The notes under the pieces were generated by a model. It did not search any database. It worked only from the letters and a program-made list of their open reading frames with translations, and was not told the origin of the DNA. A stretch of 28,023 nucleotides of DNA from a virus. The translations under genes and the position numbers were made by a program. Shown piece by piece: positions 7,918-26,890 of this stretch (its first letter is position 1; every line of letters starts with the position of its first letter). The stretch is taken from the IMG/VR virus record IMGVR_UViG_3300019487_000082, positions 1 to 28,023 of that record. The stretch is one strand, 5' to 3'.

Positions 7918-8760
7918 ATGGCCGACCAATTCATGACCGCGGGGGTGGAACTCGACGCGCTCAAACCTGAGGTTTGGAGTGCGCTGTTCTACCCGACCCT
8001 GTTGGAGGCCCTGCCCTTCAACGATTCCATTGCTCGCCAATACGAAGGGGAGATCCGAGCGTTGGGGAACATCGTGAACATCACGAGCTTCCCTCAGTTC
8101 GGTCAAGCCCAGACGGTATTGGAAGGCCAGAAAGTCGACGCGAACAGCATCACGGCGGCCAGCTCGCAACTGACCATCAACAAGATGATCGTCCAGGATT
8201 TCATCATCACGGACGTCGCGCAGATCCAAACGCTCGACGCCGCGAATGCGATCCGCGATCTCGCGTTCTTCAGCATCATGAAGCGGATGCAGACGGAGAT
8301 CATCGGAGCGATTGTCCCGTCGGCCGCGGCACCGGATCACAGCATCGCCTATGACTCGGGCACCACGTTGGCGCTCGCCGATATCCTCGAAGCCAAGGAG
8401 CTTCTGGATGACGCCGATGTGCCCGACGATGGCACCCGGAACATGATTCTGGGCTCGGCGCAGTGGAACGACATCTTCAACATCACCGGCTTGACGAGCC
8501 GCGACTTCATCAACGGGAATCCGTTGGAGTCCGGTTCATTGCCCGCGAGAGTCCTCGGGTTCATCCCGAAGATGACCACGGAAGCCGGGAGCGTGTCGTA
8601 CTTCTTCCACCCGATCTTCCAGCAGCTCGCTGTGCAGATGGGGTTGACCACGAAGTTGTTCGACATGGGAGTGAGTGGCTATCGGTCGGTGCGCGTGAAC
8701 AGCACCGTGCTGATGGGCCACCTCCAGGTGTCCAATCTTCGAGTCGTGACCATCGGGTGA
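7918..8760 (+). CDS. Major capsid protein (HK97 fold)
   Basis: 280 residues from ATG 7918, with GGAGG just upstream. The features fit an HK97-fold capsid subunit: an N-terminal arm, GNIVNITSFPQFGQAQTV, AASSQLTINKMIVQDFIITDVAQ for the E-loop and spine region, an Ala-rich A-domain part, and a C-terminal GVSGYRSVRVNSTVLMG strand segment. It is short for the family. Scaffolding is supplied by the separate gene upstream, and I see no maturation protease in the window. A GC-rich hairpin follows at 8777-8802. Confidence 0.9.
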   Translation: MADQFMTAGVELDALKPEVWSALFYPTLLEALPFNDSIARQYEGEIRALGNIVNITSFPQFGQAQTVLEGQKVDANSITAASSQLTINKMIVQDFIITDVAQIQTLDAANAIRDLAFFSIMKRMQTEIIGAIVPSAAAPDHSIAYDSGTTLALADILEAKELLDDADVPDDGTRNMILGSAQWNDIFNITGLTSRDFINGNPLESGSLPARVLGFIPKMTTEAGSVSYFFHPIFQQLAVQMGLTTKLFDMGVSGYRSVRVNSTVLMGHLQVSNLRVVTIG

Positions 8761-8776
8761 CGACCGGCTAGTTTGA

Positions 8777-8802
8777 AGCCCCCGGGGGAGACCTCGGGGG
8801 CT
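8777..8802 (+). terminator. GC-rich hairpin after the major capsid gene
   Basis: AGCCCCCG (8777-8784) pairs perfectly with CGGGGGCT (8795-8802) around a 10-base loop. What follows is GGGACTAG and an A-rich run rather than a U-tract, so it is at best a partial terminator, or an mRNA 3' stabiliser. It lies 17 bases after the capsid stop and ends just before the ribosome site of the 8836 gene. Confidence 0.6.
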
Positions 8803-8835
8803 GGGACTAGAAAAAGAAACTCAGAGGAGATCGAG

Positions 8836-9432
8836 ATGAAACCTTTCAAGACTCTGTTCCTGGCCCTGGTCGTCGCAATGGCGGCGATTCTGGGGATCAT
8901 GGTGCTGCCGACCGTAGGCGATGCCGCGATCTCCTCGGCTGTCCCGTCTCTCGCAACTAAGGTGAAGTTCCAGCAGGTGGTTTACGTCGGAGGCACCACG
9001 GTCGGACGCGGTGACAAGACCGGCGTCGACCGAGGGAATGCCCTTCCCTTCGCCGACCAGGATCTCTGGCGCATTCCGGCCAACGTGGTCATCGAGAAAG
9101 TCTACGTCGTCATCGATACGGCGGTGACCGGGACGACGGACATTGACATCGGTGATGACGACGATGCGGATGGCTTCGTCGACGGATCTCTGTCGCTGAC
9201 CCTTGGAACTCCGGGAATGTACGGATGGGATGTGAAGAACGCCGGTGCGTATCTGCGCATCCAAACCGCTGGTGCCACGGATGCCGCCGATATCTACGTC
9301 GTGCCCAACGCGAAGCATTACTCCGCAAGCGGCAAGGAAGTGAAGATGGACATCACCACGGCCAACACCGCTGGTGAGTTGCGAGTCTTCATCGAGGGCT
9401 ACAGCCTCGGCGCGAATAGCGTGACGTTCTGA
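8836..9432 (+). CDS. Decoration-like head protein with N-terminal signal peptide
   Basis: 198 residues. ATG 8836 is supported by AGAGGAG six to eight bases upstream; an earlier in-frame start at 8773 would overlap the hairpin. Residues 1-30 form a textbook Sec signal or anchor: MKPFKT, then a hydrophobic run LFLALVVAMAAILGIMVLP, then VGDA|A as a candidate cleavage site. The rest looks beta-rich. TDIDIGDDDDADGFVDG (101-117) resembles the acidic loop of phage capsid decoration proteins that lie next to the major capsid gene. Whether it reaches the virion or the periplasm is open. No alternative start removes the signal without losing the ribosome site. Confidence 0.78.
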   Translation: MKPFKTLFLALVVAMAAILGIMVLPTVGDAAISSAVPSLATKVKFQQVVYVGGTTVGRGDKTGVDRGNALPFADQDLWRIPANVVIEKVYVVIDTAVTGTTDIDIGDDDDADGFVDGSLSLTLGTPGMYGWDVKNAGAYLRIQTAGATDAADIYVVPNAKHYSASGKEVKMDITTANTAGELRVFIEGYSLGANSVTF

Positions 9433-9447
9433 TTCTTCGTGTGTCCA

Positions 9448-9489
9448 TGGGGCTCCTGGATTCATGGTAACTGAGTTCCAGGAGCCCCA
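9448..9489 (+). terminator. Strong perfect hairpin after the decoration-like gene
   Basis: TGGGGCTCCTGGA (9448-9460) is perfectly complementary to TCCAGGAGCCCCA (9477-9489), a 13-bp stem with a 16-base loop. No U-tract follows (CTCCTCACC). It lies in the 75-bp gap before the 9508 gene. It probably attenuates read-through or protects the transcript end. Together with 8777-8802 it brackets the 8836 gene. Confidence 0.65.
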
Positions 9490-12883: not shown

Positions 12884-14975
12884 TTTCAGCGTCACCGGAA
12901 ACGGTGAGGTTCAGATCAATAAGGTCGGCAAGGCCGTCGAGGACCTTGGTGAGAACGGCCAGAAGAGCCTTGGCAAGCTCTCCGGTGCCTTCAACGTATT
13001 CGCTGGCACCCTCGCTTCGGACGTCGTCCTGGGGGCATTCAACAAGCTCGCAGGGGCAGCCAGGGCGCTATTCGATCTTTTCGTCGTCGACGGCATCAAG
13101 GCCGCGGTAGAGCAGCAGGATGCGCTGAATCGACTCGGCACGGCGATGGAGATCGCTGGGCAGGCCTCCGAGGGCGCACTCGACGCATTCGACGCGTTCG
13201 CGTCAGAGATCCAGGCCACCACGAAGTTCACGGATGACGCGGTCATCAGTGCCGGTGCTCTCATCGAATCTCTGACGCAGTTAGATGAGGAGGGCCTGGA
13301 GCGGGCAACGCGCGCCTCCATCGATCTCGCCGCGGCTCTCGGGAAGGACCTCGACACTGCAAGTCAATTGGTTGCGAAAGCACTCGAGGGCAACACCGCG
13401 GCGTTGGCCAAGTTCGGTATCAGGGTAGAGGAGGGGAAGACCAAGGCCGAAACCTTCGAGAATGTCCTGTCGAAACTCGAAGCGCGGTTCGGCGGAACGG
13501 CACAGCAGCAGATCAATACCTATAGCGGTGCGATTGCCGTCCTCGAGCATAACTTCGGTGAGATCGGCGAGTCGGTCGGCAACGCCATCATCACCAATCA
13601 GAGTCTTGTCAATGTCCTCAAAGCGGCGAACGACATCATCACCAGCGTCAACGAATCGGTGAAGGACCAGAAGGGCGGGATGCAATCTCTCGTCTCAGAC
13701 GGGATTCTGCTCCTACTCGATTCAATGTCGGTTCTCGTCACGGTTTCTCAACTCGTCGTGGATGGATTCCTGCGCATCAAAGCCACTGCCATCGGCTTGC
13801 AGGGCGACATCTCCACCGTCACCAACATTCTCACCCTCGGTCTGACCGATGCCGGGAAGCGTGCTGAGGAGAGTTCGGCGAAGTTCAAGGAGATCAAGAA
13901 GAGCATCGAGGAACTTGAGGCAGGCAATGGACTGCTCGGCAAGATCCAAGACAGCTTGCAGAAACTCAGAGATGCCGCTGCGGCCGGAGTCGGCGCAATC
14001 GCCGACAACGGGACAAGGGCCACCAATTCGCTCAAAGGGGCTGCTGAGGGCGCTGAGGAACTATCTAAAGCTCAACTGAAACTCATTGAACAGGGAGTTC
14101 AGCTAGCTCAACAAGGGGTAGATAAAGACCCGGCAGAGAAGTACCAACGTGAAGTCGAGGCGCTCAACGCAGCACTTGAAGCGAACAAGATCTCTCTCAT
14201 GGAGTACGAGCTGGCACGACTCCAGTTTGAACAAGAGGCAAACGAGAAACTTCTTGAAGGCCAAGTCCAGCTCGCTGACCAACTCATCGCAGAGAATCAG
14301 AGAGCAGCTCAGCAATTCAGTTTCACGAACGCCGAAACAATTCGAGAGAATGATGAGAAGCTCAAGACGATTCTTGAGAACGAAGGGCTCAGCGCAAAGC
14401 AGCGCGCCAAGATCGAGCGAGGCATCGCAGAGAACTCGAAGCAGATCGAAGCTGAGCGCGGACGCGCCATCATGTCCAGCCTGGACAACCTGGCGAGCTT
14501 TCAGAACGCGAAGTCCAAGGAGATCGCTGCCGTCGGAAAAGCGGCGGCCATCATTCGTGCGACGATTGACACGTATCAGGGCGCATCTGCGGCGGCATCG
14601 GCTTTGGCCGGCATCCCCATCGTAGGGCCAGTCCTCGCAGCAGCAGCGGCAGCCACTTTCATCGCGGCCGGCTTGGCCCGAGTCGCACAGATCTCCGGCG
14701 TGCAACTAGCTGAAGGTATCACGTCGGTCCCGGCAGGATTTCCCAATGACACGTTTCAGGCTCGGTTGTCCTCAGGTGAACGAGTGGTTGACGCGGGGAC
14801 AAACGAGGATCTTAAGCTCATGACCGCGACGTTCCCGATGGTCGTCTCCCTACTTGGAGGAATCCTAGGTCGATTGAGCACACTCGAGACCAAGACGACG
14901 GTGAACATCGGGACGAGGACATTGGTCGAAGAGGTTCGCAGCGGCATCCAAGCCGGGAGGACTCTCGATGTCTGA
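12858..14975 (+). CDS. Tail tape measure protein
   Basis: 705 residues from GTG 12858, with AGGAG about nine bases upstream, overlapping the GT frame by 26 bases. Long helical regions, an early Ala/Gly-rich hydrophobic stretch (LASDVVLGAFNKLAGAARALFDLFVV, split around residue 60-75) and a second near 575-600 (GIPIVGPVLAAAAAATF) are typical of tape measures. It sets tail length and is ejected with the DNA. At about 0.15 nm per residue, the tail would be roughly 100 nm (inference). Residues 80-200 carry the TMP-typical pattern ATKFTDDAVISAGALIES. Confidence 0.92.
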   Translation: MAENRVIIDFSVTGNGEVQINKVGKAVEDLGENGQKSLGKLSGAFNVFAGTLASDVVLGAFNKLAGAARALFDLFVVDGIKAAVEQQDALNRLGTAMEIAGQASEGALDAFDAFASEIQATTKFTDDAVISAGALIESLTQLDEEGLERATRASIDLAAALGKDLDTASQLVAKALEGNTAALAKFGIRVEEGKTKAETFENVLSKLEARFGGTAQQQINTYSGAIAVLEHNFGEIGESVGNAIITNQSLVNVLKAANDIITSVNESVKDQKGGMQSLVSDGILLLLDSMSVLVTVSQLVVDGFLRIKATAIGLQGDISTVTNILTLGLTDAGKRAEESSAKFKEIKKSIEELEAGNGLLGKIQDSLQKLRDAAAAGVGAIADNGTRATNSLKGAAEGAEELSKAQLKLIEQGVQLAQQGVDKDPAEKYQREVEALNAALEANKISLMEYELARLQFEQEANEKLLEGQVQLADQLIAENQRAAQQFSFTNAETIRENDEKLKTILENEGLSAKQRAKIERGIAENSKQIEAERGRAIMSSLDNLASFQNAKSKEIAAVGKAAAIIRATIDTYQGASAAASALAGIPIVGPVLAAAAAATFIAAGLARVAQISGVQLAEGITSVPAGFPNDTFQARLSSGERVVDAGTNEDLKLMTATFPMVVSLLGGILGRLSTLETKTTVNIGTRTLVEEVRSGIQAGRTLDV

Positions 14976-16089
14976 GTTCAGAATCGGCGACTACAACTAC
15001 GTCTTCGATTCAACGGTCGGGCTCACGCCGTCGAGTGTGGATCCAGAATTCCCAGTTTCCAACCTCAGGAACTACCTGACGTCGAAAGTGATGCGAACGC
15101 ACCCGCTCGGCACTTTCGTCATTGATACCACTAACAACAAACTCGACTTCAACATCGGTGGCGGTCCTGTGGTGGCCACGCTCACCGCTGGAACCTACAC
15201 GGCAACGACTCTGACAGCAGAGATCGTCACGCGCATGAATGCTGCGGCAGCCGGGACGTACACCTGCGCATTCTCGACGAGCACCGGAAAGTGGACGATC
15301 ACCAAGTCAGCCGGAACCCTGAGCCTTCTCTGGGCAACCGGCGCGAACACGGCGAGCGGAGTTCACTCAACCATCGGATTCCCGTCGAGCTCCGACTATA
15401 CCGGAGCTTTGGCCTATACCGGATCCTTCATCGCACTCCATACGGAGGAGAGCGTCATCATCGATCTGCGAACTAACGAGAGCATCGATAGTTTCGCGAT
15501 GATCTTCGATAAGATGGTCGGCTCACAGTTCACTGCCGAGGCCGTCCTCAAGCTGCAAGCCAACGCGACGAACGCGTGGACGACCCCAGCCGTCGACGTC
15601 ACGTTATCGTTCGACACGGACTACGATCTCTACACGCACTTCTTCTCGTCGGCTCAGAGCTATCGATACTGGCGCTTGAAGATGGTCGACCCGAAGAACC
15701 CGAACCTGTTCCTCGAAATTCCGAAGTTGTTCCTGACCTATGCGACGCAATTGACGCAGGTGCCTCAACTCGGCTTTGCCATGGTCACTCGAGATCGAAG
15801 TGAGCAGCAATCGACTCCATACGGACATCGATACAGTGATGTATACCCAAATCTCCGTGGCATCGATTTCAAGTACGCCATCATGGGCAAGGACGATCTC
15901 AAGACTCTGGAGGACATCTACGAGCGCGTCGGAAGCGTCGCACCAGTATTCATGGCGCTGGATCCAACAGCGACTCTGTTCGACAAGGACCGATTCTTCC
16001 TCTACGGGTACCTCAAGAACACGTTGGGAAGGGAGCACGTCTTCAACGAATACTTCAACACCGGTCTCATGTTGGAGGAGGCGCTGTGA
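14968..16089 (+). CDS. Tail tip / distal tail-like structural protein
   Basis: 373 residues from ATG 14968, overlapping the tape measure end by 8 bases, with GGGAGG upstream. Residues ~48-150 form a Thr/Ala/Gly-rich module (DTTNNKLDFNIGGG, ATLTAGTYTATTLTAEIVTRMN) seen in many phage structural proteins and probably inserted into a longer fold that resumes at EESVIIDLRTNESIDSFAMIFDK. The region from about 210 (FSSAQSYRYWRLKMVD) looks like a discoidin/jelly-roll sandwich. Its position after the tape measure fits a distal tail or baseplate component. Confidence 0.7.
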   Translation: MSEFRIGDYNYVFDSTVGLTPSSVDPEFPVSNLRNYLTSKVMRTHPLGTFVIDTTNNKLDFNIGGGPVVATLTAGTYTATTLTAEIVTRMNAAAAGTYTCAFSTSTGKWTITKSAGTLSLLWATGANTASGVHSTIGFPSSSDYTGALAYTGSFIALHTEESVIIDLRTNESIDSFAMIFDKMVGSQFTAEAVLKLQANATNAWTTPAVDVTLSFDTDYDLYTHFFSSAQSYRYWRLKMVDPKNPNLFLEIPKLFLTYATQLTQVPQLGFAMVTRDRSEQQSTPYGHRYSDVYPNLRGIDFKYAIMGKDDLKTLEDIYERVGSVAPVFMALDPTATLFDKDRFFLYGYLKNTLGREHVFNEYFNTGLMLEEAL

Positions 16090-21047: not shown

Positions 21048-21545
21048 ATGAGCTACGTTCCAATCACATCAGCAGAAACCGAGAGCGGGAAACCTGTAAC
21101 TCAGGAGCTATTCGGCAAGGTTCGGGATGACATCGCAGATCATGAGTCCCGCATTTTGACGCTGGAAGGATCGCTCCAACAGTTTCAGCCGATGAAATGG
21201 CTCCTTCGTGGTGCGTTCTCTCTCGGAGTCCCATTGTTCGGAGTTGAATATCTTCGACTGTTCAGCAACGTCAATCTCACCGGAGCCGTGCTTCTCGTTC
21301 CTCTCGCTGGATCAGCGAGGCTATGGGACGTAGATGTTCAATTGAAACGTGGAGTAGGGGCCTTCTCATCGATCTTCTCGACGAGACCATCCGTTGACTT
21401 CAGCGCCGGGGACTACTCCATCAGCACCAATGCCGTGCTGACGACTATTGCGCTTCTCTCCGGTGACATCCTGAGAATTGACGTGCAGGACGGACAAACG
21501 GACAGTGAGGAGTGCACACTGTACTTACCATTCGAGGCAGCATGA
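21048..21545 (+). CDS. Minor tail / baseplate-associated protein
   Basis: 165 residues from ATG 21048, four bases after the hub stop. An N-terminal adaptor helix with FGKVRDDIADHESRILTLEGS (22-42) is a phrase common to phage fiber-attachment proteins. It is followed by a hydrophobic segment (WLLRGAFSLGVPLFGVEYLRLF) and a beta-rich C-terminus ending in CTLYLPF. It probably attaches to the tip as a short trimeric fiber. The stop overlaps the next start (ATGA). Confidence 0.7.
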   Translation: MSYVPITSAETESGKPVTQELFGKVRDDIADHESRILTLEGSLQQFQPMKWLLRGAFSLGVPLFGVEYLRLFSNVNLTGAVLLVPLAGSARLWDVDVQLKRGVGAFSSIFSTRPSVDFSAGDYSISTNAVLTTIALLSGDILRIDVQDGQTDSEECTLYLPFEAA

Positions 21546-22084
21546 TTAAATTTATCAGCTATGCCATTGGCATCCTCACCTCATTAATCATCGTTTCAGT
21601 GTTGTCGGCCGGCATCAGGATGCCGATGCCTTTTGATTTTGAACCGATACCGCTTGCGTTTGGAGCTGCACGATTCACTAAATATAAGATTAGTACGCTG
21701 GACAGTGGTTCATTCACTACAAGTAGTACCAGTTATGTTGACGCTACCAATGTCACTGTCACGATGATCAGTACTGGTCGACCAGTGATGATCGGTCACA
21801 TACCCGGTGATGGGCTCTGCCACTTCACGATTGCATCGAGTTCGGCGGGTCCCCCCGTTTTACAGGTGAAGTTGATTCGAGACGTCACAGATCTTGGCAG
21901 CTTTAACAGCGGCGGCGATACCACAACCGATGTTGAACCTTTTACTCCGTGCTCTGCGATCTCGTTCCTAGATACCGCAGCGAGCGCTGGTTCACATACA
22001 TGGAAGACACAGGTTCGAGGAAGCGCAGGAACATTCGTTGTCGGAGTTCAAGAGGCAAGGATTTATGTCTACGAACTTCCGTAG
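21542..22084 (+). CDS. Structural-looking beta protein with N-terminal signal/anchor
   Basis: 180 residues. ATG 21542 overlaps the preceding stop; an earlier in-frame start at 21512 lies inside that gene. Residues 3-24 are hydrophobic (FISYAIGILTSLIIVSVLSAG), after only one Lys, consistent with a signal peptide or membrane anchor. The remainder is a Ser/Thr-rich beta-sandwich (SFTTSSTSYVDATNVTVTMIS, TWKTQVRGSAGTFVVGVQEARIYVYEL), as in phage tail or capsid fibers. The gene looks more AT-rich than its neighbours, which may mean separate acquisition. Confidence 0.7.
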   Translation: MIKFISYAIGILTSLIIVSVLSAGIRMPMPFDFEPIPLAFGAARFTKYKISTLDSGSFTTSSTSYVDATNVTVTMISTGRPVMIGHIPGDGLCHFTIASSSAGPPVLQVKLIRDVTDLGSFNSGGDTTTDVEPFTPCSAISFLDTAASAGSHTWKTQVRGSAGTFVVGVQEARIYVYELP

Positions 22085-22490: not shown

Positions 22491-22943
22491 ATGGGCATGA
22501 AGGTTCGCGAGGCCGCTGTGACGAAGGTCTTCCTTCATTGCAGTGCCTCGCCGAACCCATCCCAGGACATCGAGGACATCAGACGGATCCACGTCAAGGA
22601 ACGCGGGTGGAATGACGTCGGGTACAATTGGTTCATCAAGCAGGACGGGACCATTCAACAGGGAAGAGATGAGAGGTTCGTTCCCGCGGCCGTCGAGCAC
22701 TTCAATCAGGAGAGCATCCACATCTGCCTCGCTGGTTTCGACAATTTCAAACCGCCGCAATTCGAGAGCCTCCATTCGCTGCTGAAGATCAAACGAGCGC
22801 AGTACCCATATGCTACGCTTCATGGGCATAGGGAATTCGACAAGCGAGGGAAGACATGCCCAAACTTCGATTACTCCGAACTCGTCAGATGGTGGAACGA
22901 ATTGGCCCCTGCCTACTTACAGCGGGAGTTGGGGCGCTCCTGA
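22491..22943 (+). CDS. N-acetylmuramoyl-L-alanine amidase (T7 lysozyme-like endolysin)
   Basis: 150 residues from ATG 22491 (a second in-frame ATG at 22497 is possible). It cleaves the amide bond between muramic acid and the peptide stem. VFLHCSAS (H16), GWNDVGYNWFIKQDGT (Y45), a LHGHREF histidine (H111 or H113) and GKTCPNFDY (K121, C123) match the zinc ligands and catalytic Tyr/Lys of T7 lysozyme, and the length matches too (about 151). No cell-wall-binding domain or signal peptide is visible, so a holin or similar would be needed. The 3' end overlaps the following lipoprotein by 88 bases. Confidence 0.92.
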   Translation: MGMKVREAAVTKVFLHCSASPNPSQDIEDIRRIHVKERGWNDVGYNWFIKQDGTIQQGRDERFVPAAVEHFNQESIHICLAGFDNFKPPQFESLHSLLKIKRAQYPYATLHGHREFDKRGKTCPNFDYSELVRWWNELAPAYLQRELGRS

Positions 22944-23968
22944 CCTCATGCGGGGTCTTCGGTGGGGCGAAAGTCAGATATGATGCCGCGCCATCCCCAG
23001 TAAATAACAACTTCCACACCGTGCTGATGGAGACGACCTGCGGCGGTCGTTCACAACTCGGGTACGGGCAATCAGCCTGTTCCTTGGCTGCCGGCGAGCC
23101 TTACAACGGTGAGCTGATTCTCCACACTCCTCTCCCTGGGGCGATTCGGTTGATTGGGAGACTCTGCGGGGTCGACTCAGCGAAATACCACAACGACGTG
23201 GAGGGGAGTTTCCGCATCCCGATTGCCGAGCTCCTCGACAAGGTCCCAGAGTCGGTGACGTCGTGTGTCGTCGAGGTTTTCGTGAATTGGGACCTCGTGA
23301 AAGGGATGACTTCCGACTATCCGCTGGATGGGATGATAGGCAGGTTCTACTACCGCAGGAGACTCGAGGGCAGAACGACTGCCTCCATGACCTGGGGACC
23401 TTCGCCTGCCCTTGTAGGAACGATGCAAGGCGTCGGGTTCGGCCAGTTCAGATCGGTTGCTCGGGGTGGGTTCCCTGTATCTGAGCCTCTTGAGTTGGTC
23501 ATCAAAACTTCCAAGCCGGTTCTGGAAGGGACGTACCGTCTCTTCGGGTGTGGCGCCGGGGTCGAGCTTGGGACGTTCTCGGGCGACACCATAAGGCTCT
23601 CCAGGGAAGCGCTGATAGGCCCTCTGCCTGGCGTCGGCGGCTGCATGATGTTCGGCTATGCGATGGGGAAGACGGCGCAAGGAGAGGCCATCCACGACGA
23701 TCTGGTGCTGGGCGTGGAGGTATTCGGAAAGAACGTGATGAGGCTCGCCGGAAGCGTCGCGTTGAAAGATGGGAAAGTCTGCTACACCGCGGAGTCGTCG
23801 GTGAGCGTGACGATCTTGAATCACGGCACGACGAATCAACTGAGCACGAAACTCGAGGATTGTTTCAAGATGCCCGCCGATGGGAAGGCCCGCCTCGGGT
23901 TCTTCACCCACAAGGGGAGGTCGGTGTACGCGGTCATTGAGGGCGGGGTAGTGGAGTACGTGCAGTGA
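22856..23968 (+). CDS. Cysteine-rich lipoprotein in the lysis cassette
   Basis: 370 residues. ATG 22856 has a GAGGGA site just upstream and lies inside the amidase gene in another frame; ATG 22889 is an alternative. A basic start (KLRLLRTRQMVER) and hydrophobic GPCLLTAGVGALL precede a lipobox LTSC with the acceptor cysteine at residue 32. At least eight further cysteines are scattered through the mature part (TTCGG, SACS, RLCG, TSCV, FGCG, GGCM, KVCYT, EDCF), suggesting disulfides in the periplasm. It looks beta-rich with two similar halves. I do not recognise it: options are a large outer-membrane lysis factor, a superinfection-exclusion protein or a moron. Confidence 0.8.
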   Translation: MPKLRLLRTRQMVERIGPCLLTAGVGALLTSCGVFGGAKVRYDAAPSPVNNNFHTVLMETTCGGRSQLGYGQSACSLAAGEPYNGELILHTPLPGAIRLIGRLCGVDSAKYHNDVEGSFRIPIAELLDKVPESVTSCVVEVFVNWDLVKGMTSDYPLDGMIGRFYYRRRLEGRTTASMTWGPSPALVGTMQGVGFGQFRSVARGGFPVSEPLELVIKTSKPVLEGTYRLFGCGAGVELGTFSGDTIRLSREALIGPLPGVGGCMMFGYAMGKTAQGEAIHDDLVLGVEVFGKNVMRLAGSVALKDGKVCYTAESSVSVTILNHGTTNQLSTKLEDCFKMPADGKARLGFFTHKGRSVYAVIEGGVVEYVQ

Positions 23969-25002: not shown

Positions 25003-25320
25003 ATGTCTGAAGAACGGCGAATGGTCGTACACATCACAGTTTCTAGGGTCCTTACCTTAATCTCAGCATGCCTAATCTCATGGTTCGCATGGTTTGGGCA
25101 CCAACGAATGAGGGCTCTCGAAGTAGCGGCATCACGTTGGTCTAATGCGGAGTCGTTCCTGGTTGAGTACCTATCAACTGGTACCGTGAAGATAGCCGTG
25201 AATCACTTGGGCAAGTGCATCTCAGTCGAGATCGAAGCAGATCGAATCAACCGCAAGCCGTGTCCCTCAAACCAAGAACTCAGAACGCCCAAGCCGGGAT
25301 CGCGTAGTTCGTCCCATTGA
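25003..25320 (+). CDS. Small single-pass membrane protein
   Basis: 105 residues. ATG 25003 has GGAGG (24989-24993) about nine bases upstream and is preferred to upstream in-frame starts. One hydrophobic helix (about 10-33: ITVSRVLTLISACLISWFAWFGH) is followed by a soluble part with two cysteines (LGKCISVEIE and KPCPSN). It is a lone plus-strand gene, divergent from the VRR-NUC gene and overlapping the tail of the minus-strand fiber gene by 41 bases. No minus-strand gene fills 25003-25279, which supports it. Function unknown. Confidence 0.6.
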   Translation: MSEERRMVVHITVSRVLTLISACLISWFAWFGHQRMRALEVAASRWSNAESFLVEYLSTGTVKIAVNHLGKCISVEIEADRINRKPCPSNQELRTPKPGSRSSSH

Positions 25321-26509
25321 TGTTCAAGGTCAGATAGACCGCCGGGTTTCCAGTTGAGGCCCCCGGACCATTCGTGAGAGTGAGAACGCCGACACTCGGA
25401 GTCTGGACCGTCGTATTGATCCGATGGATGTCCGTCTCTCCGGTCATCCCGATATTCACGGATCCGTTGGTGTTGAGTAGGAGTTGCCCGTGGTTGGTGG
25501 ATGTCTGTAAAGAGAGGCTCTGGATCGTTCCAGAACCAGTTTTAGACGTATTGATGACAAACCGATCAGATCCGAAAGTTGAAGGGTCCCATGTGATCTG
25601 TAGAAACTCCGCGTTGGCCACGTTAGTAGGGGTTCCCTTGCTGAGCAGCCGGATCGCGGTAGTCTTAGAGCCGTCTCCGTCTTTAGAATACAACTCCAAA
25701 CCAAAATCAGAAGCGGAAGTCTGAGATTGGACAGCTAGTCGGGTTCCTTGCCTGGTGAAAAGGTACGCCTGCTGGCCCGAAGCCCCAAGATGTGTGAAAC
25801 TTTGATCAGGATTAAATTTAAAAGACTGTACTCCTCCAGTCGAAACGCTTAATTCATCTGCCGCACTTCTATAAATCCCGGTATTAGTATCCCCTGAGAA
25901 CGAATATCCTGGTAGAGCGGCTGTTCCGTTCGTCCCAAGAAGTGCTCCGGTGCCCAACGTGATCGTTCCGTTGGTATTCAATAAGATTTGACCGAAATTA
26001 GATCCAGCGATTAATTCAAGCGGACGAGCAATACCAGTCCCCGAATTGGTCGTTTGGATTCTGAACCTAAGATTAAATGGATCCCAAAATTCTTCTAGAG
26101 CTTCAGAATTAGTAACATCAGATGGGAGTCCCTTGCCAAAGATGATGTTGCGGACGTAATCAGTTCCGTCACCATCCTTAGAAAACGTGGCGATGTCTGA
26201 AGTCGTCCCGGAGGTTTGACTTTGGATAGCAAGGGACACTCCCAATCTGGTGAAAAGATACGGCTGTTGTCCACTCGCTCCGTTATGAGTGAAACTTCGA
26301 TCAGGATTCACTTGCAGAGCATTCGTTCCGCCAGTCGTGAACCCAATAGTATCCGCCGCAGGAAAGAACATCCCGGTGTTAGGATCGCCTGCTGGTGCGA
26401 TTGCTGCCGATGTAGCCGATCCAGATTGGGTCACACCGGGAGACGTGAAGTAGTCCGCCATTCCGAAGAGGCAGAACAGAAGAAGCGAAAGTGCGATGAA
26501 TCGTTTCAT
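25280..26509 (-). CDS. Fiber-like protein with signal peptide and duplicated domain
   Basis: 409 residues, minus strand, ATG at 26509-26507 with AAGGGGG upstream. Residues 1-18 are a Sec signal peptide (MKRFIALSLLLFCLFGMA). The body contains two diverged copies of one domain, 41-186 and 206-354 (shared DPNTGMF/DTNTGIY, GASGQQxYLFTR, QSQTS, KDGDG, NFGQILLNTNG/NHGQLLLNTNG). DTNTGIY repeats are common in phage tail fibers. The C-terminus ends in AIPAWAF. A fiber with an export signal, on the opposite strand to the tail genes, is odd: it may be an outer-surface protein rather than a virion fiber. The preceding secreted gene (26519) is 9 bases away. Confidence 0.82.
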   Translation of the reverse strand: MKRFIALSLLLFCLFGMADYFTSPGVTQSGSATSAAIAPAGDPNTGMFFPAADTIGFTTGGTNALQVNPDRSFTHNGASGQQPYLFTRLGVSLAIQSQTSGTTSDIATFSKDGDGTDYVRNIIFGKGLPSDVTNSEALEEFWDPFNLRFRIQTTNSGTGIARPLELIAGSNFGQILLNTNGTITLGTGALLGTNGTAALPGYSFSGDTNTGIYRSAADELSVSTGGVQSFKFNPDQSFTHLGASGQQAYLFTRQGTRLAVQSQTSASDFGLELYSKDGDGSKTTAIRLLSKGTPTNVANAEFLQITWDPSTFGSDRFVINTSKTGSGTIQSLSLQTSTNHGQLLLNTNGSVNIGMTGETDIHRINTTVQTPSVGVLTLTNGPGASTGNPAVYLTLNINGTNYAIPAWAF

Positions 26510-26518
26510 AGTGCCCCC

Positions 26519-26890
26519 TTATCGAACGTCACCGTAGACGACGCCTGAAGTTATCGTGCTGCCGCTGTCGCTTCTGATGTAGACGGTGTTCAATCCGTCC
26601 ACTTCGAGGCAGCGGCCAACTCCTGCTGGCATATAAATGTCCCCCACATCCGCAGTTGGCGCCAGAGTGGTCGTTCCGTTCGTGTTCACTGCTATGACTG
26701 ATCCGGTGCTGTTATACACGCACAACCATCTCTGATAGCGGAGTCCGCTCTTTGCCAGAGATTGGGTGTTGGCAGCGGAGTAAGCGGTTGGGATCGGCGA
26801 TCCGCCACTCGCCGTGATCTTGAAACTGCTCGGAGGTCCGGCCAGGGAAAAGATCGGGATGAGTAGGAGTAAAGCGAGAACGCGGTGCAT
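26519..26890 (-). CDS. Small secreted beta-rich protein
   Basis: 123 residues, minus strand, ATG at 26890-26888 with GAGGTG upstream. MHRVLALLLLIPIFSLAG is a clear signal peptide with a likely cleavage near LAG. The mature part is beta-rich with two cysteines (LCVYN and GRCLEV), suitable for a disulfide. It lies nine bases before the fiber-like gene and probably shares its transcript. No family recognised; pairing of two exported proteins suggests joint function. Confidence 0.78.
   Translation of the reverse strand: MHRVLALLLLIPIFSLAGPPSSFKITASGGSPIPTAYSAANTQSLAKSGLRYQRWLCVYNSTGSVIAVNTNGTTTLAPTADVGDIYMPAGVGRCLEVDGLNTVYIRSDSGSTITSGVVYGDVR

Follow-up and report, generated by a model that had tools for sequence, protein, structure and literature searches.

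Cement proteins of the type carried by KHP30 and KHP40 (7dn2 and 7dou; Helicobacter phages), Pam1 (7eel; cyanophage) and GP4 (8h89; Ralstonia phage) are small and sit as trimers on the exterior of the capsid shell (PMC9698820). In the virion, these trimers occupy quasi-threefold sites. Dec of phage L, Soc/Hoc of T4 and gpD of lambda are likewise accessory shell proteins, as the protein described here appears to be, but have folds other than its cement type (PMC9698820). None of the terms 'signal peptide', 'secret-', 'periplasm' and 'disulfide' appears in a 2020 review of decoration proteins, and no tailed-phage decoration or cement protein with a signal peptide was found in the open-licence literature, which, being confined to open-licence papers, is weak evidence. 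An export signal is unexpected on a head protein, and its presence in the system analysed below raises the possibility that, in some phages, shell completion takes place outside the cytoplasm.

The window, a virus record of 28 kb (28,023 nt) that is possibly a fragment, carries late genes of a long-tailed phage. Its terminase was assigned by position and distant similarity (matches of ~26% identity, spread over many hosts), the portal, for which no database matches were found, a scaffold-like protein and a tape-measure-like gene by position, and the tail tube by a Phage_tube_2 match; an amidase gene is also present, and an Rfam search gave no match. One tail gene (14968-16089) encodes, at residues ~51-151, a short domain that is found elsewhere in most relatives, sometimes lodged within the tail-tube match, with one half on either side of it (L006, L007, L038, L043), in the manner of a mobile virion domain. 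Also, 3' of the amidase gene lies a large lipoprotein-like gene (22892-23968) with an LTSC lipobox, an uncertain start and no family match. The original prediction had singled out, at 8777-9489, a decoration-like head protein with a Sec signal on residues 1-30 and a hairpin on either side, and this part of the window, with the capsid gene before it, contains the following features:

7918..8760, plus strand: major capsid protein gene, HK97-type (Pfam Phage_capsid_2 and PHROG 267 matches)
8768..8810, plus strand: hairpin upstream of the cement gene, in the spacer behind the capsid gene, with core arms 8777-8787 and 8792-8802 (inverted repeat and RNA fold, z -4 to -5)
8823..8830, plus strand: Shine-Dalgarno sequence AGAGGAGA, read from the sequence, 5 nt before the ATG at 8836
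8836..9432, plus strand: gene for a cement/decoration protein with signal peptide, 198 aa (open reading frame; orthologues directly after the capsid gene; cement fold)
8836..8925, plus strand: predicted Sec signal peptide, residues 1-30, cut GDA/A (n-, h- and c-region rules; 13 relatives alike in position and grammar)
8926..9429, plus strand: mature cement domain (AlphaFold2 model, pLDDT 86 and pTM 0.82; structure matches)
9448..9489, plus strand: downstream hairpin, 13-bp perfect stem, arms 9448-9460 and 9477-9489 (inverted repeat and RNA fold, z ~-4)

Scans of IMG/VR yielded 25 orthologues of the cement protein, which together with the window form an ingroup of 26, two more distant types and duplicates being set aside. 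All orthologues belong to uncultured phages and lie directly 3' of the capsid gene, whose product is 47-75% identical to that of the window throughout the ingroup; one capsid gene (L007 3-725) has a single in-frame stop at the site of a glycine in the window, a candidate for either sequencing error or recoding. No relatives of the cement protein were found among 50,697 phage records, and none was confirmed in 84,980 prokaryote genomes.

A first model of the mature domain, from 17 aligned sequences, already had capsid cement proteins as its best structure matches. With the later model, built from 28 mature sequences and scoring as listed above, the top PDB matches in VIA-align were the cement proteins of KHP30 (Z 9.7), Pam1 (9.3), KHP40 (8.7) and GP4 (8.6), unrelated folds in the same comparison having Z of at most 6.7, and Foldseek gave E-values of 3e-4 to 7e-3. 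The baseplate-tail protein of phage R4C (8gtc) also reached Z 8.6, so that the fold alone is not exclusive to cement. Although the predicted fold is like theirs, the four cement proteins are only 9-14% identical to the mature domain of the window; the sole matches in a PDB sequence search, S-layer proteins at E 0.06-0.1, were judged to be chance. Thus, the modelled protein has the Ig-like beta-sandwich of cement proteins and its gene stands beside the major capsid gene in 26/26 family members, and the name cement or decoration protein, as originally predicted, appears justified by predicted fold and position. Where it departs from known cement proteins is the export signal of the window and 13 relatives, the absence of such a signal being usual in these proteins though not strictly defining: GP4 cement was traced from Ala2 (PMC9698820), and in KHP30 and KHP40 the alignment begins at residue 1 of the chain, so that none of the three shows a cleaved signal.

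The signal of the window (MKPFKTLFLALVVAMAAILGIMVLPTVGDA, followed after the predicted cut by AISS) has two lysines in its n-region, a long unbroken hydrophobic core (Kyte-Doolittle 11-mer 3.04) and a c-region of small residues, with a G-x-A cleavage motif weaker than that of most relatives. Signal peptides were called by rules together with comparison among relatives, and a positive n-region, an h-region and small residues at -3 and -1, as expected for Sec and signal peptidase I, were found in 14 proteins, mostly with AxA. A lipobox with cysteine at +1 is absent from the window protein, which has no cysteine at all. The mechanical list of open reading frames had given a longer TTG start, which we rejected; ATG 8836 was taken as the start because a strong ribosome site precedes it. 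Could the true start instead lie downstream of the signal, making the signal an annotation artefact? A GTG at residue 43 in the window would give a product like that of signal-less relatives, but it lacks a ribosome site whereas ATG 8836 has AGAGGAGA, and since no well-placed internal start was found in the window or recurs in relatives, we consider this explanation extremely improbable.

Signal peptides occur in 14/26 members (the window and 13 relatives) and are lacking from the other 12 (L001, L004, L005, L007, L008, L009, L028, L040, L042 and L013-L015), which start at the body of the protein, mostly with a good ribosome site. These signal-less orthologues are 44-64% identical to the window in the mature domain, have the same gene order and mostly share its downstream hairpin, but differ in that 10/12 have a short, hairpin-free spacer and none has two cysteines. 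The signal sequences themselves are divergent, with a constant grammar of K/R, hydrophobic core and mostly AxA. Thus, a Sec signal on residues 1-30 is upheld by the n-, h- and c-region rules and by its recurrence; conservation in relatives, raised in the original prediction as a check, holds for the grammar in the 14 signal-bearing members and fails for the 12 that lack it. Because signal grammar recurs in 14/26 members and hairpins in most, we regard these features as beyond chance.

Signal-bearing and signal-less members are intermixed on the capsid-protein tree, which implies four state changes (4-5 in bootstraps), at least two of them forced by strongly supported branches, while the cement tree implies six; our best overall estimate is 4-6, counted without direction (gain or loss). 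Compared with L003 and L018 respectively, the window is 75% and 51% identical in its capsid protein but 54% and 69% in its cement protein. Judging by these sequences, the cement gene has moved, its history differing from that of the adjacent capsid gene as if a single shell gene had been exchanged between phages, and the events are hard to count because of this recombination of cement relative to capsid genes.

In 13/14 signal-bearing proteins, 7-10 residues separate the predicted cut from a conserved aromatic residue of strand 1 (15 in the window), and in signal-less orthologues 7-12 residues separate this aromatic from the initial Met. Predicted cleavage would thus restore approximately the N-terminus of the signal-less orthologues. 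The cysteines also follow the signal, the mature signal-bearing proteins having none in four cases (window included) and exactly two in ten, and the 12 signal-less ingroup members having none, one (at 84, 89 or 173) or three (in L004). Among members that contain cysteine, 10/10 signal-bearing and 0/8 signal-less proteins have two (Fisher test 2e-5, uncorrected for kinship); two distant signal-less proteins with two cysteines each (L010, L016) lie outside the ingroup count. In window numbering the pairs occupy six site combinations, 44/189, 38/190, 71/177, 115/130, 52/69 and 57/71, and the first two are plausible bridges because the N- and C-terminal segments of KHP30 cement pair as strands (PMC9698820). 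In sign tests of the signal against hairpin or cysteines on independent pairs, the direction was mostly consistent, with only 2-4 pairs, too few for significance.

These data bear on whether the N-terminal segment, instead of being an export signal, might stay on the protein as a hydrophobic arm with a use in the head. We rate this as very unlikely, since it is the signal grammar and not the sequence that is conserved, the segment is missing from half of the orthologues, the predicted cut restores the signal-less N-terminus and, within the ingroup, paired cysteines occur only in signal-bearing members. The export signal looks real, being patchy but grammatical, and we judge it to be working because its grammar is kept, cleavage would restore the N-terminus, the cysteines of many relatives come in twos and no signal-less copy or well-placed internal start was found, the search for a second, signal-less cement copy having covered the long records. 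We are quite confident that this is a cement protein and that its signal peptide functions. Export has good support, and the steps proposed after it are inferences.

The hairpins on both sides of the gene were also borne out, none of 200 shuffles folding as well as either. Neither is followed by a U-tract of the kind expected of a terminator. A strong hairpin occupies the capsid-cement spacer in 12/14 signal-bearing members, where spacers measure 64-104 nt, and in 2/12 signal-less members, the other ten having a spacer of 9-27 nt without one (Fisher test 0.001, uncorrected for kinship); L061 and L046 are signal-bearing without a spacer hairpin and L005 and L040 signal-less with one, hairpin presence having been judged by reading the listed folds and not by a blind threshold. 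The downstream hairpin, in contrast, is present with and without signals, so a tie between it and the signal was rejected; because it is nearly universal 3' of the cement gene and has a U-tract in several relatives, the capsid transcription unit appears to end there. The earlier suggestion that the hairpins set a separate expression level gains support from the long upstream spacer, which mostly accompanies the signal. We infer that translation of signal-less cement is closely coupled to that of the capsid gene and that exported cement would be uncoupled from it, perhaps to spare Sec.

How might an exported cement protein reach the head? Tailed-phage heads are taken to be completed in the cytoplasm, and because they are built there, exported cement would have no access to them until the inner membrane gives way. 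In the route that we propose, the gene encodes a capsid cement protein of the trimer type, which in the window phage and roughly half the relatives bears a cleavable Sec signal; a hairpin spacer would partly uncouple the cement segment of the mRNA from capsid-gene translation. The protein would be exported via Sec, cut to roughly the N-terminus of its signal-less orthologues and fold in the periplasm. There, many orthologues could form a disulphide, though not that of the window, which has no cysteine. Having retained its capsid-binding design, it would most likely meet virions when the envelope ruptures at lysis and decorate them then. Such late decoration is physically possible, since in vitro Dec of phage L attaches to P22 capsids that are already mature (PMC7602432). 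Decoration after export is a tentative proposal, nearly balanced between belief and doubt, the exported protein being one that could serve elsewhere. On the whole reading, by which a true cement protein has been re-routed via Sec, oxidized in the periplasm in many relatives and joined to virions at lysis, we are evenly divided; the window protein, with no cysteine and the weakest cleavage motif of the set, speaks against it, as do the two cysteines of the signal-less L010 and L016 proteins.

In the main rival, the protein has left the virion: an exported cement homologue would act in the periplasm or at the surface (superinfection block, receptor masking or decoy) and the head would go without cement. 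The surface masking and exclusion raised in the original prediction would be putative purposes of this kind. This is consistent with a signal that exports the whole product, no signal-less copy or internal start having been found, and with the other exported fibre-like proteins that signal-bearing phages often have. However, site-by-site constraint is alike in signal-bearing and signal-less groups (rho 0.70; every column has a shared residue), with no fixed differences between them, which is unexpected after a change of role and from which we argue that the protein still serves the head, and the gene remains behind the capsid gene. We hold this rival to be unlikely, at perhaps half the strength of an even case. 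A search for superinfection-exclusion or defence families gave nothing in PADLOC and nothing significant in Pfam, exclusion proteins being poorly covered. Less probable still is a dual use, in which a weak signal or late saturation of Sec would leave part of the protein to decorate heads in the cytoplasm while the rest is exported. The weak cleavage motif of the window would suit it, as would the high expression that should follow from a position after the capsid gene. Against this, many relatives have textbook AxA signals, the long hairpin spacers would rather reduce expression and an uncleaved hydrophobic extension would sit at what is the capsid-contacting end in KHP30 (PMC9698820).

Other late proteins of the window also begin with signals:

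21542..22084, plus strand: second signal-bearing late protein, 180 aa, two cysteines after the signal; no relatives found
25280..26509, minus strand: tail-fibre-like protein with a signal, 409 aa (tail-fibre match in PHROGs at E 3e-8), with an MKRFIALSLLLFCLFG start behind AAGGGGG
26519..26890, minus strand: signal-bearing small protein, 123 aa, two cysteines after the signal, beside the fibre gene

The last two form a two-gene unit of signal-bearing proteins (25280-26890) within an otherwise plus-strand late region. The fibre-like protein has no credible PDB sequence match; an also signal-bearing relative of it in L072 is 1224 aa long, fibre-like and has a Laminin_G_3 domain. Four of the longer signal-bearing relatives encode large signal-bearing proteins, of 683 aa (L076), 637 aa (L080) and 612 aa (L085), that of L079 being truncated by the end of the contig. 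Other phages encode three relatives of the 637-aa type, each of which begins like a signal peptide, and the four contain 14, 16, 12 and 12 cysteines. More broadly, a group of signal-bearing proteins of 617-683 aa, with 12-16 cysteines and an N-terminal GFENG/GFESG motif, occurs in several uncultured phages, L076 being placed in it by motif and size only; the two that were tested had no Pfam or PHROG assignment above cut-off:

L080, 11147-13057: 617-683 aa group
L076, 6367-8415: 617-683 aa group
L092, 403-2253: 617-683 aa group
L093, 2507-4369: 617-683 aa group
L094, 2492-4366: 617-683 aa group

The 612-aa protein of L085 (1232-3067, minus strand) contains repeated SVPVAIASNQSAIP-type motifs and directly follows the signal-bearing cement gene. 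Three long signal-less records have mainly lipoprotein-like proteins instead, and a signal-less relative encodes a lipoprotein-like papain-family protease (Peptidase_C1; L090 1288-2532). That exported fibre-like proteins accompany signal-bearing cement is a trend only, the records being fragments. Bdellovibrio mosaic adhesive trimer (MAT) proteins (PMC10769870) are phage-fibre-like and have signal peptides, as does the fibre-like protein of the window, but are encoded by the bacterium; the two-gene unit resembles them in general plan. The fibre-like protein suggested Bdellovibrio as a candidate host.

More generally, some tailed phages might complete their particles outside the cytoplasm, with Sec-exported cement and fibres, often carrying periplasmic disulphides, attached at lysis to heads and tails that are otherwise finished, a trait that gain and loss of the signal on one gene would have toggled repeatedly; we offer this as a conjecture that we doubt somewhat more than we believe. 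Decoration after export, if it were shown, would amount to a new route of assembly. The gain and loss of a cleavable export signal by a shell protein within one family, many signal-bearing members having disulphide-compatible cysteines, is a natural experiment, in which close relatives can be compared to learn if export still allows a capsid to be cemented and which benefit, such as stability, this may bring to the free particle. The coat proteins of filamentous phages are virion proteins that, like the cement protein of the window, have Sec signal peptides; filamentous phages, however, assemble in the membrane, whereas the window, which has genes for a capsid, a scaffold-like protein and a tail tube, belongs to a tailed phage.
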